Assembly: GCA_902500825.1 (NCBI GenBank)
Contig: CABVRX010000004.1
Span: forward strand, 62,001 to 126,000
DNA: 64,000 bases
Direction: 5' to 3'
Origin: an uncultured Nitrospira sp.
GTDB lineage: Bacteria > Nitrospirota > Nitrospiria > Nitrospirales > Nitrospiraceae
A program made the position numbers and the translations under genes. This document shows, in pieces, positions 19,715 to 24,720 of the stretch. The notes beneath the pieces were generated by a model that saw only the letters and a program-made list of their open reading frames with translations, was not told where the DNA came from and made no database searches. Each line of letters begins with the position of its first letter. The stretch's first letter is position 1.

Positions 19715-20436
19715 GGGGCTGACGTAGTTAAGGCCTAGTGTTTGGATGATTATACCAATATTTCAGCTGCCTGAGCAGCCTTTGGACGGGTACCGTCATT
19801 GGAGCGCCACTCGCACTCCTTCAAATACCAATAGAAACTTTCTTTGCGAATCCCGTTGAATCTGCGCAGGTGCCGCTTGGCTTGGTTCCAAAAGTTTTCG
19901 ATGCCGTTGATGTGATGGCCACGTGCGGAGACAAACGTTTTACTGTGGTTCACGCGTCGGTGACGGAACTCGGAGACATCCAGCGTGTCATACTCACGGA
20001 AGCTGTCAGTATACACGATGCTATCGGGCCGAACCCGCTCACGGATAATGGGCATCAACGTCTTGGATTTGGCATTGGGGATGACGGCGGCCACCACATG
20101 ACCGCCCCGTTTTAGCAGGCCAAACACCGGGACCTTCCCGGCCGCCGCACGGCCTCGTCTGCCTTTACGTACACCGCCGAAATAACACGCATCGGCTTCC
20201 ACTTCCCCCGACAACTCATAATTCGGCAACTTGCTGGCGATCAACTGGCGTACTCGCTGGTAAAAATAAATCGCCGTGTTGGCTTGGACGCCAACCAACA
20301 GTGCCGCTGCCCGGGCCGTCGTCCCGGCCACAAACTGCTCCAGCAGTTTCCCTTGCTGGCGTCCGGTCATCCGACTGCGGCGCTGATACATCTCGCTCAG
20401 CTACCCTCTTTGGGTCTGCTTAGCTACGTCAGCCCC
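19715..20436 (-). mobile_element. IS1595-family insertion sequence (IS1016-like), complete
   Basis: A 722-base element with terminal inverted repeats GGGGCTGACGTAGYTAAG at 19715-19732 and 20419-20436 (17 of 18 bases match). It encodes one transposase (19750-20391). The eight bases flanking each end (ATAAATTT on the left, TTCTGTTA on the right) do not match, so no target duplication survives. That suggests a deletion or recombination after insertion. On its left it abuts the IS5 remnant; on its right its terminal repeat supplies the stop codon of the guanidinase-like gene. Confidence 0.88.
19750..20391 (-). CDS. IS1595-family transposase (ISXO2-like DDE domain)
   Basis: A 213-residue transposase of the short IS1016-like kind. 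The ISXO2-like catalytic domain shows the first Asp in EADACYFGGVRKGRRGRAA, the second Asp in VYTDSFREYDTLD, and the HHINGIENFWNQAKRHLRRF motif, where Glu (in GIENFW) is the last catalytic residue. The reading frame is intact and normal in length, so the element may still be active. It is the only gene inside the terminal repeats. Confidence 0.92.
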   Translation of the reverse strand: MYQRRSRMTGRQQGKLLEQFVAGTTARAAALLVGVQANTAIYFYQRVRQLIASKLPNYELSGEVEADACYFGGVRKGRRGRAAAGKVPVFGLLKRGGHVVAAVIPNAKSKTLMPIIRERVRPDSIVYTDSFREYDTLDVSEFRHRRVNHSKTFVSARGHHINGIENFWNQAKRHLRRFNGIRKESFYWYLKECEWRSNDGTRPKAAQAAEILV

Positions 20437-21574
20437 TTCTGTTAAGCAGGTTTCCGGATCGTACCTGGCAGGCCAGGACGTCGCAGATGACGCGTGTGGC
20501 CATGAGGCTCGTAATCTCCGCTGCGTCGTAGGGCGGTGAGCATTCCACGATCTCCATCCCAGCCAGCGGCTTTGTATCCGCGATGATCTGGAGAAACTTC
20601 AGGACTTCACGCGGCAGGAATCCACCCGGTTCCGGCCAGCCGGTGCCCGGCACGAAGGCGGCGTCCAAGCAATCGACGTCGAAGCTCAACCACACGGCAT
20701 CCACCCCATCAAACGCCACTTCGAGTGCCTGCTTCGCGGCATTCTCGATGCCCATTTCCACGCAATCGGTCACGGTCATGATCGTGGTTTGGCGTTCACG
20801 GCCGACCTTCACGCCGGGTCTGGGCGCTTGCCAACCGCCGATGCCGATCTGGACAAGATTCTTAGCCGGCACGTTGGGGATATTCGTCGCGTGAAACCAG
20901 GGCGTGGTATGCATGCGTTCATCGAGATCGGTCTCCTGCGTGTCCACGTGCCGGTCGAAATGCAGGATGCCGAGTTTCTTGCCGTTCATATTCTGCGCGA
21001 CACCCCGCACGGTGGCAAAGCCCAGGGAATGGTCTCCGCCGAGTACCACGGGAAACGCGCCGCTGGCATAGACATGCCCCACGCCTTTACTGACTTGATC
21101 GAAGGTCTTTTCGATGTTGCCGGGAATCGTAAACACATCGCCGACATCGCAGATCGAAATGGATTCCCGCAAATCCACGCCGAGCTCAAAGCTGTAGGTG
21201 CCGTACAGGGCAGAGATCTTGCGGATGCCTTGGGGGCCGAAGCGGGTACCGGCTCGATACGTCGTCCCGCCATCGAATGGCGCGCCGAGAATAGCGACAT
21301 CATATTGGCCGCATTTACGGACATCTTCGACATACGGCGCCTTGATAAAGGTGTTGATGCCGGCAAAGTGCGGCAGTTCCCCACGGCTGAACGTGGGAAT
21401 CCGACGATCGACGATCGAATCGGCCCCAGGAAGGCCCACTTCAAGACCGTGGGCGATTTCTTCTTCAAACTTCGTGGTCGGCAGCAACGCCTCCGCTTCG
21501 ACCGCGAACTTCGCTTCCGGCCCGTATTTGTCATGCAGGGGGACCTTGCCTTGGTACTTCCCTTTTTTCGCCAT
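20429..21574 (-). CDS. gdmH: Ureohydrolase, probable guanidine hydrolase (guanidinase, GdmH-like)
   Basis: A 381-residue arginase/agmatinase-fold enzyme. Binuclear metal ligands are all present: His182 (GGDHS), Asp207, His209 and Asp211 (HFDRHVDTQ), Asp299 and Asp301 (SFDVDCLD). The Arg inside HFDRHVD, where agmatinases normally have Ala (HFDAHxD), and the ~85-residue N-terminal extension fit my memory of the Ni-dependent guanidinases of cyanobacteria and comammox Nitrospira. The reaction would be guanidine to urea plus ammonia. Context agrees: an APC permease 84 bases upstream on the same strand, under a guanidine-I riboswitch. AAGGAG precedes the ATG. The last codons (NLLNRRG and TGA) run into the terminal repeat of the IS1595 element, which provides the stop, so the native C-terminus has probably been altered by a few residues. 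Agmatinase remains a possible alternative. Confidence 0.85.
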   Translation of the reverse strand: MAKKGKYQGKVPLHDKYGPEAKFAVEAEALLPTTKFEEEIAHGLEVGLPGADSIVDRRIPTFSRGELPHFAGINTFIKAPYVEDVRKCGQYDVAILGAPFDGGTTYRAGTRFGPQGIRKISALYGTYSFELGVDLRESISICDVGDVFTIPGNIEKTFDQVSKGVGHVYASGAFPVVLGGDHSLGFATVRGVAQNMNGKKLGILHFDRHVDTQETDLDERMHTTPWFHATNIPNVPAKNLVQIGIGGWQAPRPGVKVGRERQTTIMTVTDCVEMGIENAAKQALEVAFDGVDAVWLSFDVDCLDAAFVPGTGWPEPGGFLPREVLKFLQIIADTKPLAGMEIVECSPPYDAAEITSLMATRVICDVLACQVRSGNLLNRRG

Positions 21575-21658: not shown

Positions 21659-23137
21659 TCATTCTTGAGTCGGTGTGGACTCCCTCGGACGCATCAATAC
21701 GTCGTCTCTTCTTGGTTTAACGGCGAGAAGATACAGCGTGGTCAGCCCTAAGATGCTTCCGAGAACCAACGGGACGGCCCAGAGTTGCCACCAGGGGGCG
21801 TCAGGCGAAATGGCGTAGGGGCGCGGCCACGCAATATTGACGAATTCAAACACCGACCACAGAAACGCCGCGGTATTGATCAGCAAGCCCCAAACGCCCA
21901 GCTTCAGGTGACCCAACGAAGGATCCCATCGACCTGTGAGACGGGTAAAGAGTCCAACACCAGTGGTCATCGCAAACATGGCGTACAGACCGCCCGTGCC
22001 GAACGCCAGCACCGTCGCGACTGCTTCATCATTGAGTCCGAAGAGCAGTCCGAGTGTTGCCAATAGGACCGTGAAGAGCACGCCATTGTGCGGAGCACCG
22101 GCAGAAGTGACCCGACTGAGCACGGCCGGCATACTGCCTTCGCGCGCCATGGAAAACACAATGCGGGATGTGTACTGCACCATGGAGGACCCGCAGGCCA
22201 GGAACGCGATCATGACAATCGCCAGAAACGGGGTTTCCGCCCAGGCGCCAAAGTTGTCGACGATCACAGGCGTAACGGGATCGGACGCGGCGCTCGTATG
22301 GACCAGGGTGTCGCGGTTAAAGCTCAGGGTGAGGGCGGCGGAGTTGAAGAGCACCACGCTGCCCACCATGCAGAGCGACAGGAAGATTGCGCGAGGCACC
22401 ATCCGTTTGGGCTCTTGAGTTTCCTCGGCGATGGTGGAGCACGCATCGAAGCCGATAAACGCCCACCCGGAAATGGCGAGCGCCGCCAGAAACGCAGCGG
22501 TCTGGCTGGGGGCGGTTCCCGTCCCGAGATGTGCAAACAGTTCGGAGAATTCGTGTTGCCGAAAAAACAAGAACAGCAGCAACGCGACCCCGAACGAGCC
22601 GACGATTTCCGCGTAGACTCCCAGGGAGATAAGGAACTTAAAGACGGCGACGTGGACCAGGTTGAGGACGGTGCAGATCAGCATAAACACCGCGCCCCAG
22701 AGCACGAGGGTGACGCCTGTGCCGCTGCCTGATCCGAAAAAAATCGCCAGCCAGACCCCGCCGGTGTAGGCCGTCGTGGTGAGCATGGCGATCGTGGAAC
22801 TGACGTAGATGGCCCCGGCATAGGTGCCGGCAGTAGCGCCTCCGAGCTGTCTCGCCCATTTATACGCGCCTCCCGCAATCGGAATCTGCGAGGACAGTTC
22901 CGCATAGACAGTCGCCACCAATAGCTGCATCACCAGACAGAGCGCCAGTGCGGAGAACCACCCGCCGCCGGCAACCACCGTCTGCACGCCGATAATGGCG
23001 TAGAGTCCCGCCACAGGCGAAACGGTGGCGAATCCGATGGTGAGGCTGTTCCAAAGACTGAGGCTACGGTTGAGTGTCTCGGGAGGACTTGTCGCGGAAG
23101 CAGGAAAAATCGTATCCGGACTTTCTTTCATTAGCAT
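21659..23137 (-). CDS. APC-superfamily permease, probable guanidine importer
   Basis: A 492-residue amino acid/polyamine/organocation permease with about 12 membrane segments. The family's first helix reads LTIGFATVSPVAGLYAIIGV and the region ELSSQIPIAGGAYKWARQLG is the conserved APC loop. FIGFDACSTIAEETQEPKRM is another family hallmark. The start at 23137 (AGAGAGG six bases upstream) is chosen; a longer open frame to 23416 would run through the riboswitch and is rejected. A 25-codon leader ORF overlaps this start by seven bases. Riboswitch control and the adjacent ureohydrolase point to guanidine as substrate, though the APC fold alone would equally suit amino acids or polyamines. Confidence 0.87.
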   Translation of the reverse strand: MLMKESPDTIFPASATSPPETLNRSLSLWNSLTIGFATVSPVAGLYAIIGVQTVVAGGGWFSALALCLVMQLLVATVYAELSSQIPIAGGAYKWARQLGGATAGTYAGAIYVSSTIAMLTTTAYTGGVWLAIFFGSGSGTGVTLVLWGAVFMLICTVLNLVHVAVFKFLISLGVYAEIVGSFGVALLLFLFFRQHEFSELFAHLGTGTAPSQTAAFLAALAISGWAFIGFDACSTIAEETQEPKRMVPRAIFLSLCMVGSVVLFNSAALTLSFNRDTLVHTSAASDPVTPVIVDNFGAWAETPFLAIVMIAFLACGSSMVQYTSRIVFSMAREGSMPAVLSRVTSAGAPHNGVLFTVLLATLGLLFGLNDEAVATVLAFGTGGLYAMFAMTTGVGLFTRLTGRWDPSLGHLKLGVWGLLINTAAFLWSVFEFVNIAWPRPYAISPDAPWWQLWAVPLVLGSILGLTTLYLLAVKPRRDDVLMRPRESTPTQE

Positions 23138-23208
23138 GACAGACCTCTCTGACGTGGCAGCAGGTCTGACTGATCCGGTACGGAGAGAACTATAGGGTGG
23201 AAATGCAT
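23131..23208 (-). CDS. 25-codon leader ORF overlapping the permease start
   Basis: An ATG at 23208 with AGGAGG seven bases upstream opens a 25-codon frame beginning MHFHPIVLSV and ending with TAA at 23131. Its last codons overlap the permease ATG (ATGCTAA), a typical translational-coupling junction. Its ribosome binding site and start codon are complementary to a segment inside the riboswitch. The peptide resembles no known protein, so if it is translated its role is probably in coupling, not as a product. Translation is an inference. Confidence 0.55.
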   Translation of the reverse strand: MHFHPIVLSVPDQSDLLPRQRGLSC

Positions 23209-23306
23209 AACGAAGCCTCCTGTTGGAAAGGCTAAATTCCCAAAAGGCCATGTACCTCAGTACATGATCTCCCGGGCTTTTATCCCTCCGTGGAGCCTCG
23301 TTATGC
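23205..23306 (-). promoter_or_regulatory. Putative riboswitch expression platform (SD-sequestering pair)
   Basis: The bases at 23205-23220, which encode the leader ORF Shine-Dalgarno and start codon, are inverted-repeat partners of 23292-23306 inside the aptamer's P3-type hairpin. Pairing gives 15 base pairs with one G-U wobble and one bulge. A small hairpin (CATGTAC, loop TGAG, GTACATG) lies between them at 23250-23267. There is no T-run, so a translational rather than a transcriptional switch is indicated. Confidence 0.65.
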
Positions 23307-23375
23307 GAGGCCGGAAACTCTTGGACCAGACACTGCCCACTAAGGGCAACCGGAACCCTAGTTTCCCTTTTGGAA
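23267..23375 (-). promoter_or_regulatory. Guanidine-I riboswitch (ykkC class)
   Basis: The minus strand contains the hallmark conserved blocks of the ykkC/guanidine-I aptamer in the right order: CTAGGGTTCCGG (about 23350-23361), TGTCTGGTCCAAGAG, and ACGGAGGGATAAAAGCCCGG followed by GAGA (about 23268-23290). This class binds guanidinium and turns on genes for guanidine export, import or breakdown. Here it lies about 130 bases upstream of the permease start, transcribed in the same direction. A -35/-10 pair just upstream fits a transcript that begins with the aptamer. Confidence 0.93.
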
Positions 23376-23387
23376 CGATTTACTGAG

Positions 23388-23416
23388 AGCCTATTACTTC
23401 GCCAGACCAAAGTCAA
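23388..23416 (-). promoter_or_regulatory. Promoter of the guanidine riboswitch transcript
   Basis: On the minus strand, TTGACT (23411-23416) and TAGGCT (23388-23393) are separated by 17 bases. Transcription would start near 23381, about six bases before the first conserved aptamer region. The -10 box is weak, so strength is uncertain. The remaining bases up to 23691 hold no gene or other structure that I can see. Confidence 0.5.
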
Positions 23417-23691
23417 GTCATGAGAGGGTGGCGAGGTCTCTCACTAGAGTATAACGGCTGCACGACCAGCAATCCTCTCCCAGTTGGAACCTCCCTGATG
23501 ATGCGAAATGTATTGCCAGTAATTTTTCATGCGACCATACTGTTTCTTAGTGCGGATCTCCGAGCCACACCCACACCCCGAGCACAGTTTTCGGAACCAC
23601 CTTTCTTGCCTCGTCCCCTTAGAGTATTTGTGCTAGGATGCGCGACTGTGCGCTTGCCTAATCATATTCCTATTGCCTTAGCCTGATCGCC

Positions 23692-24720
23692 ATGGCGTCC
23701 TCGGCTGCCTCACCACCTTCTGACTATCGCTTTTTGCTCCTCATTATCCCCTCGTTGTCCATCCTGCTTCTCGCGGTCGGCCTGTTTGAATTCGGCTCCA
23801 ACATTACGGTGGAGAATTTTCATACTCTCACGCACCGGCTGATGCACCCTGCCTCCGAAGCCTCAACCAAGCCGTTGGACCCTTCGCAGTTTCTGGTTGA
23901 GGTCAAGTCCCGGTATATTTGGCTGACGACCGTCGTGGTTGCGCTGGTGGCCGGGCTCTATGCTCTGATCTCCTGCGGAGCGATCATCTACCAGGCTCAT
24001 CCACGACCGCGCCTGATAATAGTTATCGCCCTTGGAATATTCCTCGCCTCGATTGGAATCGCATTCATTTGGGCACTCGATGAGACACATGCACTCTACC
24101 GAGCGGTCTTTAGCTTTAGCTACGACAACCTTCGTCAGGCCGGACGCCAACGCATCAGCGAGGATCTCTTACGCTATGCCATGGTAGTGGTGTCTATCGT
24201 CAATGTGGAATTCCTTGTGGTGCCAGTAGTGGCTCTGCTCGCTGCGTGCAGCACACTTGCCTCACCGATCACCGGCACTCAGCCCAATCCCGAGTTTTGG
24301 GCATTGCAGATGGGACGGTTGAAAGAAGTCTTGAGCGCAGCGTCGGCGATTCTCGTCAGCGGGGTCTTGCATATGGGAGCCTGGCTGCGCTGGCCGGCTG
24401 CGCTGGTTGCCGACACCAAGGCGCACGAAGCGTTACTGGGCGCCGCCTTAGCCATCACGCTTTTTTGGGGTGTCACATTTACCTTGATGTTGGTGTCCAC
24501 ATATTTGCCCGCCGCCCTACTTCTTGCCAGACGCGCGCAAGCACTGTTATTGGAAAGTCCCCCTCAACCATCCGCGCCTGACCCGCAGCAATGGCTCAAG
24601 GACCATGGTTTGTTCCTCTCGTTGCAAGATCATTTGCCCCAGTTCGGGCTCATGCTCGCGCCTCTGCTCGCCAGCCCTCTGAGCTCTCTGCTGCTCGCTC
24701 CGCTCACGCCGACGGGCTAA
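23692..24720 (+). CDS. Integral membrane protein of unknown family
   Basis: A 342-residue protein that I do not recognise. It has at least five hydrophobic segments: about residues 13-33 (FLLLIIPSLSILLLAVGLFE), 75-100 (IWLTTVVVALVAGLYALISC), 105-127 (RLIIVIALGIFLASIGIAFI), 165-185, and 250-270 (FWGVTFTLMLVSTYLPAALL). A soluble loop lies between the first two. The C-terminus ends in a leucine-rich hydrophobic stretch. The initiation site lacks a good ribosome binding sequence. It is divergent from the guanidine operon and convergent with the methyltransferase gene, so it appears to be transcribed alone. Confidence 0.65.
   Translation: MASSAASPPSDYRFLLLIIPSLSILLLAVGLFEFGSNITVENFHTLTHRLMHPASEASTKPLDPSQFLVEVKSRYIWLTTVVVALVAGLYALISCGAIIYQAHPRPRLIIVIALGIFLASIGIAFIWALDETHALYRAVFSFSYDNLRQAGRQRISEDLLRYAMVVVSIVNVEFLVVPVVALLAACSTLASPITGTQPNPEFWALQMGRLKEVLSAASAILVSGVLHMGAWLRWPAALVADTKAHEALLGAALAITLFWGVTFTLMLVSTYLPAALLLARRAQALLLESPPQPSAPDPQQWLKDHGLFLSLQDHLPQFGLMLAPLLASPLSSLLLAPLTPTG

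Follow-up and report, generated by a model that had tools for sequence, protein, structure and literature searches.

Within the window, by which we mean the whole 64,000-nucleotide stretch analysed, a guanidine-I riboswitch is followed by an APC-family permease gene and then by an arginase-family enzyme gene (Table 1), in the same order as in the comammox guanidine operons (PMC11410670), which enable growth of comammox bacteria on guanidine (PMC11410670). The genome is Nitrospira-like, and since it carries amoA, the organism is a comammox bacterium. The riboswitch aptamer matched RF00442 over its full length (model positions 1-107) with 95.2 bits against a gathering score of 63, and a genome-wide search returned this copy only. 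By its sequence and its place 5' of predicted guanidine transport and degradation genes, it is a member of the guanidine-I class, predicted to bind guanidinium. An IS1595-type transposase gene (19750-20391, minus strand) lies immediately 3' of the guanidinase-like gene.

Table 1. Features of the guanidine-I locus, in window coordinates
Feature	Position	Strand	Basis or remark
Guanidine-I riboswitch aptamer (P1, P2, P3)	23267..23372	-	RF00442, 95.2 bits
Helix P0, 5' strand, CCAAAAGG	23366..23373	-	RNAalifold; linked changes
Anti-start arm: P2 loop and 3' strand, GCATAACGAGGCTCC (RNA GCAUAACGAGGCUCC)	23292..23306	-	Folding, comparative tests
Hairpin H1, CATGTAC-TGAG-GTACATG	23249..23266	-	Present in ON and OFF folds
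Helix P0, 3' strand, CCTTTTGG	23240..23247	-	Extended by one G (to 23239), invades P3 in the OFF fold
Sequestered arm: SD, spacer and AUG of leader ORF, GGAGGCTTCGTTATGC (RNA GGAGGCUUCGUUAUGC)	23205..23220	-	Folding, comparative tests
25-codon leader ORF, MHFHPIVLSVPDQSDLLPRQRGLSC	23131..23208	-	Stop TAA 23133-23131
Second hairpin, CAGACCT...AGGTCTG, around permease SD (GAGAGG)	23140..23168	-	37 haplotypes
APC-family permease, putative guanidine importer	21659..23137	-	PF13520, 3.5e-36; start 23137 or 23131
Arginase-family enzyme; putative guanidinase, from its position and a homologous operon in the literature	20429..21574	-	PF00491, 3.6e-76; PMC11410670

The first-pass annotation of this DNA had described an inverted repeat of 15 pairs, with one wobble and one bulge, between the aptamer and the start of a leader ORF. 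Folding reproduced it exactly: positions 23306-23292 paired with 23220-23205 in a helix of 15 pairs, including one G-U, plus one bulged G, thus covering the SD (GGAGG, 23220-23216) and the ATG (23208-23206). The proposal that SD and AUG pair with the aptamer in the ligand-free RNA was likewise supported: the unconstrained minimum free energy structures of 23131-23381 (z = -3.7) and 23190-23375 (z = -4.6) were long rods with this anti-start helix at their base, and none of the shuffles folded as well. The alternative fold expected of a translational riboswitch, in which an aptamer strand pairs with SD and AUG, is therefore available to this RNA. The structure is less compact than had been suggested, as P3 is invaded as well and a rod of about 100 nt forms. 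As to chance, pairing with the GC-rich aptamer was equally good for 4 of 3000 sequences obtained by dinucleotide shuffling of the start region and for 30 of 2990 21-mers drawn at random from the window. Support from the single genome is strong, not conclusive, and because luck remains possible at the 0.001 to 0.01 level, relatives had to decide.

The riboswitch was found in 49 of the 175 genomes of the family and, in a phylum-wide sample of 396 genomes, in two genera only, that of the window and a second one in the same family. Across an alignment of 48 Nitrospira leaders, start-site pairing reached the AUG in all 48 (z < -2 in each), and 94.6% of the cells were paired in the true register versus 21 to 48% in slid registers. 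Six cells were altered on both sides, compared with 0.9 expected from shuffling, and compensatory changes are exemplified by CAUGGC/GCCAUG in leader L026, CAUAGC/GCUAUG in L030, and GGUUCC/GGAACC in L035. In partner-swap tests, which here and below are not corrected for phylogeny, the mean pairing with the own partner beat 2000 of 2000 swaps and, in a later set, 3000 of 3000. A tree-aware null, in which changes were reassigned to branches with clades of similar size in a permease tree, gave an excess of double changes with p = 0.003 when counted by cells; counted by pairs (two pairs), p was 0.02 to 0.03, which is modest within Nitrospira alone. The AUG-1 pair was broken in L009, L011, L019, and L032, one loop base was missing in six relatives, and the rod spacer outside the helix displayed a weak selection trend only (mean z of -1.1). 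On the basis of this comparative evidence from 48 of 48 Nitrospira leaders, we regard the pairing as real.

In L040 (genome G068), P2 is remodelled: its 5' arm (GGCTTCGTT...GTTATG) has come to resemble the strand that carries SD and AUG, and an A-U pair takes the place of the G-U in the anti-start helix. In L033 (G058), the segment with the SD and leader start is absent between H1 and the permease; the same genome holds a second riboswitch, truncated at a contig end (L052).

A pattern survey brought up the same layout in Nitrosospira and Nitrosomonas metagenome-assembled genomes (L096 and L127). The riboswitch was present in 101 of the 125 genomes of the family of L096, the Nitrosomonadaceae, from which 70 leaders could be scored. 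When P2 was matched with the start region, the own partner beat 3000 of 3000 swaps in the Nitrosomonadaceae alone and also when these were joined with Nitrospira. Among 118 sequences from both groups, the base before the AUG was paired as A-U in 80, G-C in 22, and G-U in 7, while the AUG-3 pair was C-G in 97 and U-A in 4. Alignment of related leaders, the check that had been proposed for the pairing, thus revealed compensatory changes in Nitrospira and Nitrosomonadaceae; conservation and covariation, whose lack was to count against it, were both found. Judged from these alignments, ammonia oxidizers of two phyla have kept the anti-start pairing, and its two strands co-evolve. The Nitrosomonadaceae also contain divergent, back-to-back pairs of guanidine-I riboswitches a few hundred bases apart (G477:C70:31955-32378, G495:C15, G478:C17, G479:C9, and G480:C139).

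The AUG covered by this helix is not always that of a leader. A separate leader ORF follows the riboswitch in 37 Nitrospira sequences, among them the window, and in all 37 its stop lies -8 to +2 nt from a permease-frame start, so that a short riboswitch-controlled ORF ends on the start of its target; in the window, the leader stop sits between the permease-frame ATGs at 23137 and 23131. In the direct form, found in L005, L015, L023, L024, L028, L031, and L035, the gated AUG is the permease's own, and in L004 (G119) an insertion fuses the leader in frame to the permease, making the gated AUG the permease start. Among the Nitrosomonadaceae, 31 leaders are of the direct form and 31 have a leader ORF, and in 22 of the latter 31 no more than 15 nt separate stop and start. 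The leader ORF named as the target by the first-pass annotation is thus the gated gene in the window and 36 other Nitrospira sequences, yet it is dispensable to the design, as relatives use the AUG of the permease.

Occurrence in 37 Nitrospira sequences with a shared MHxHPI...SDLLP theme would suit an ordinary small gene encoding a functional peptide, with its overlap of the permease being secondary. The codons argue otherwise: changes at the three positions (73, 41, and 62) showed no third-position excess in the leader, compared with 277, 173, and 830 in the permease, and non-synonymous differences outnumbered synonymous ones. In addition, L004 and the seven direct-form sequences have no separate ORF, the same AUG starting the permease there. 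A small gene of this kind is the least probable of the readings that we weighed, and a peptide function was set aside on the grounds of the codon positions. Since the third-position excess is lacking, the leader likely acts by being translated and not through its peptide; its translation is a prediction, one that the codon positions do not themselves bear out. A second hairpin encloses the permease SD, and its arms (CAGACCU/AGGUCUG) are kept across 37 haplotypes, with swaps as good in 3 of 2000 cases. Together with the overlap of stop and start, this hairpin makes translational coupling of the leader to the permease probable.

Guanidine-I riboswitches are commonly described as transcriptional ON switches (PMC12186494), and the comammox guanidine riboswitch has been described as transcriptional as well (PMC11410670). 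If this applied here, guanidine would prevent formation of an intrinsic terminator and the start-site pairing would be incidental. Such is the mode of most studied members of the class (PMC12186494) and the one stated for it in the comammox paper (PMC11410670), and a U-tract platform occurred in 40 of 122 surveyed members. An intrinsic terminator is, however, the usual and not an obligatory platform, and we found no terminator-like site in 22900-23700; among the Nitrosomonadaceae, a run of six T between aptamer and start was present in only 1 of 70 leaders. Moreover, covariation in two phyla would not arise if the pairing were incidental. We therefore consider a transcriptional switch improbable at this locus and conclude that guanidine probably acts by switching on translation, not transcription. 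The terminator-bearing RF00442 riboswitches share with the present one the aptamer sequence and fold, the ON logic, and the guanidine genes located 3', and differ in their terminator, in place of which the P2 loop and 3' strand here sequester the start site.

A further reading would keep the sequestration and add Rho, which would act on unprotected leader and permease mRNA, so that both translation and transcript level would fall without guanidine. This is compatible with all of the structural evidence, and a passage of PMC12508155 cites a tight link of riboswitch translation control to Rho termination in other systems. As it would add to start-site sequestration without replacing it, we look on a contribution of Rho as possible, if rather unlikely, and retain sequestration of the start site as the basis of control.

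We also scored 122 guanidine-I loci of other bacteria, using ORFs of at least 80 codons, a threshold at which short leaders could be missed. At Proteobacterial loci that lack a U-tract and have a large ORF 45 to 80 nt downstream (e.g., L095, L128, L122, and L156 of L060-L179), the P2 5' strand paired with the SD: for 34 such haplotypes, pairing amounted to -14.2 kcal/mol with the own partner versus -11.0 kcal/mol after swapping, and 0 of 3000 swaps were as good. No such pairing was detected in the U-tract members of the survey. An exact match of at least 7 bases extending over the scored gene's start codon occurred at 1 of the 122 loci, that of Nitrosospira L096. The Proteobacterial riboswitches, which precede transporter genes, thus also employ P2 as an anti-SD element, with P2 and SD changing together, but there the 5' strand and loop lie on the SD and leave the AUG outside, whereas here the loop and 3' strand cover SD, spacer, and AUG. 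The first-pass annotation had noted that platform and aptamer share a strand and knew of no such arrangement in this class; the sharing holds, while its uniqueness does not, given that Proteobacteria use the other P2 strand. These data suggest that, where guanidine-I riboswitches lack a terminator, P2 serves generally as an anti-SD element, and the ammonia oxidizers seem to use the other P2 strand plus the loop, covering SD and AUG together. Occlusion of the SD in guanidine-I riboswitches may already be on record, and we claim no priority for translational platforms.

Folding of the Nitrospira alignment with RNAalifold yielded, unsupervised, an additional helix, P0, formed by CCAAAAGG upstream of the aptamer and CCUUUUGG. 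Linked changes in P0 occurred in separate lineages, namely, GAAGG/CCUUC in L016-L017 and L026-L032 and AAAGGG/CCCUUU in L003 and L009. P0 was also sought in the Nitrosomonadaceae, where it was not detected (not significant). PRPP riboswitches (ykkC subtype 2b) likewise have a P0 that joins the ends of a ykkC aptamer and is part of the platform (PMC6031431), and P0 was reported absent in guanidine-I (PMC6031431); the Nitrospira P0 differs from that of the PRPP class in being split from the aptamer by H1, and we claim no role in ligand recognition for it.

We then considered how the two folds could be exchanged. In growing-transcript folding, completed for three sequences, P2 of the window sequence remained intact (probability of 1.0) until the last bases, and P3 was invaded by CCUUUUGGG (23247-23239) as soon as this segment was transcribed. 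The anti-start helix reached probabilities of 0.10, 0.95, and 1.00 as the AUG and the next bases emerged, and P2 yielded only then. The full-length OFF rod lay about 13 kcal/mol below the modelled ON aptamer fold, by nearest-neighbour energies that omit the tertiary fold and the ligand. In the model, this difference excludes switching at equilibrium, so guanidine must act during transcription; the simple ligand-driven shift originally envisaged is thus replaced by kinetic switching. Constraining the ON fold raised the unpaired probability of the AUG from 0.00 to 0.77 in leader L001, while the SD mostly stayed within a weak local hairpin (unpaired probability of 0.05 in L001, with a median of 0.09). 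The expectation that a ligand-locked aptamer would free both SD and AUG is consequently met by the AUG and not by the SD, whose retention in the modelled ON fold may reflect either a shortcoming of the model or a genuine second layer.

The same 13 kcal/mol could be taken to mean that strong SD-AUG pairing imposes constant low translation with no response to ligand, the aptamer being a relic. Apart from what the energies omit, the aptamer core is almost invariant in the 48 leaders, the P2 and P0 pairs are maintained as well, and the guanidinase protein of N. inopinata rises in abundance on guanidine (PMC11410670), which fits an ON switch. A relic aptamer is thus very unlikely, and a responsive switch remains our preferred reading.

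The aptamer, the pairing with its conservation and covariation, the stop/start overlap, the second hairpin, and the lack of a terminator are computational results, from which we infer a ligand response, kinetic timing, leader translation, and coupling; these would combine as follows. Without guanidine, CCUUUUGGG would invade the ligand-binding helix P3 during transcription, and the emerging SD, spacer, and AUG would take over the P2 loop and 3' strand from the P2 5' strand, burying the leader start site in a long rod. If guanidine bound before the AUG emerged, P1, P2, and P3 would be locked, CCUUUUGG would be held by CCAAAAGG in P0, keeping the invader off P3, and the AUG would stay open for ribosome entry. 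Ribosomes translating the leader would then unfold the second hairpin, exposing the permease SD, and reinitiate at the permease AUG that overlaps the leader stop, leading to expression of the permease and, with it, of the operon. The translational ON logic proposed at the outset is supported, and to the modelled whole, a guanidine-I switch that sequesters the start site and turns translation on, with kinetic timing and leader coupling, we assign a probability of roughly 0.7.

The nearest counterpart of the coupling step is the B12 riboswitch of M. tuberculosis ppe2, which likewise acts on a short ORF with a stop overlapping the start of the target (PMC11260477) and for which termination-reinitiation has been demonstrated (PMC11260477). 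It is an OFF switch of the B12 class (PMC11260477), in contrast to the guanidine-I switch described here, which is predicted to be ON and in which a further hairpin encloses the SD of the target. A more specific formulation, to which we give even odds, is a two-stage relay in which the P2 loop and 3' strand would mask the leader SD and AUG and leader translation would open the hairpin over the transporter SD, with the same helix, through compensatory changes, gating either the leader or the transporter AUG in two phyla and with P0 as an extra element in Nitrospira.

For the comammox guanidine operon, our analysis predicts translational control without a terminator, exerted through a helix whose pairing includes the start codon. 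The variants with and without a leader ORF, together with the compensatory pairs, provide natural controls for testing how one strand is shared between the aptamer and the masking of the start site.
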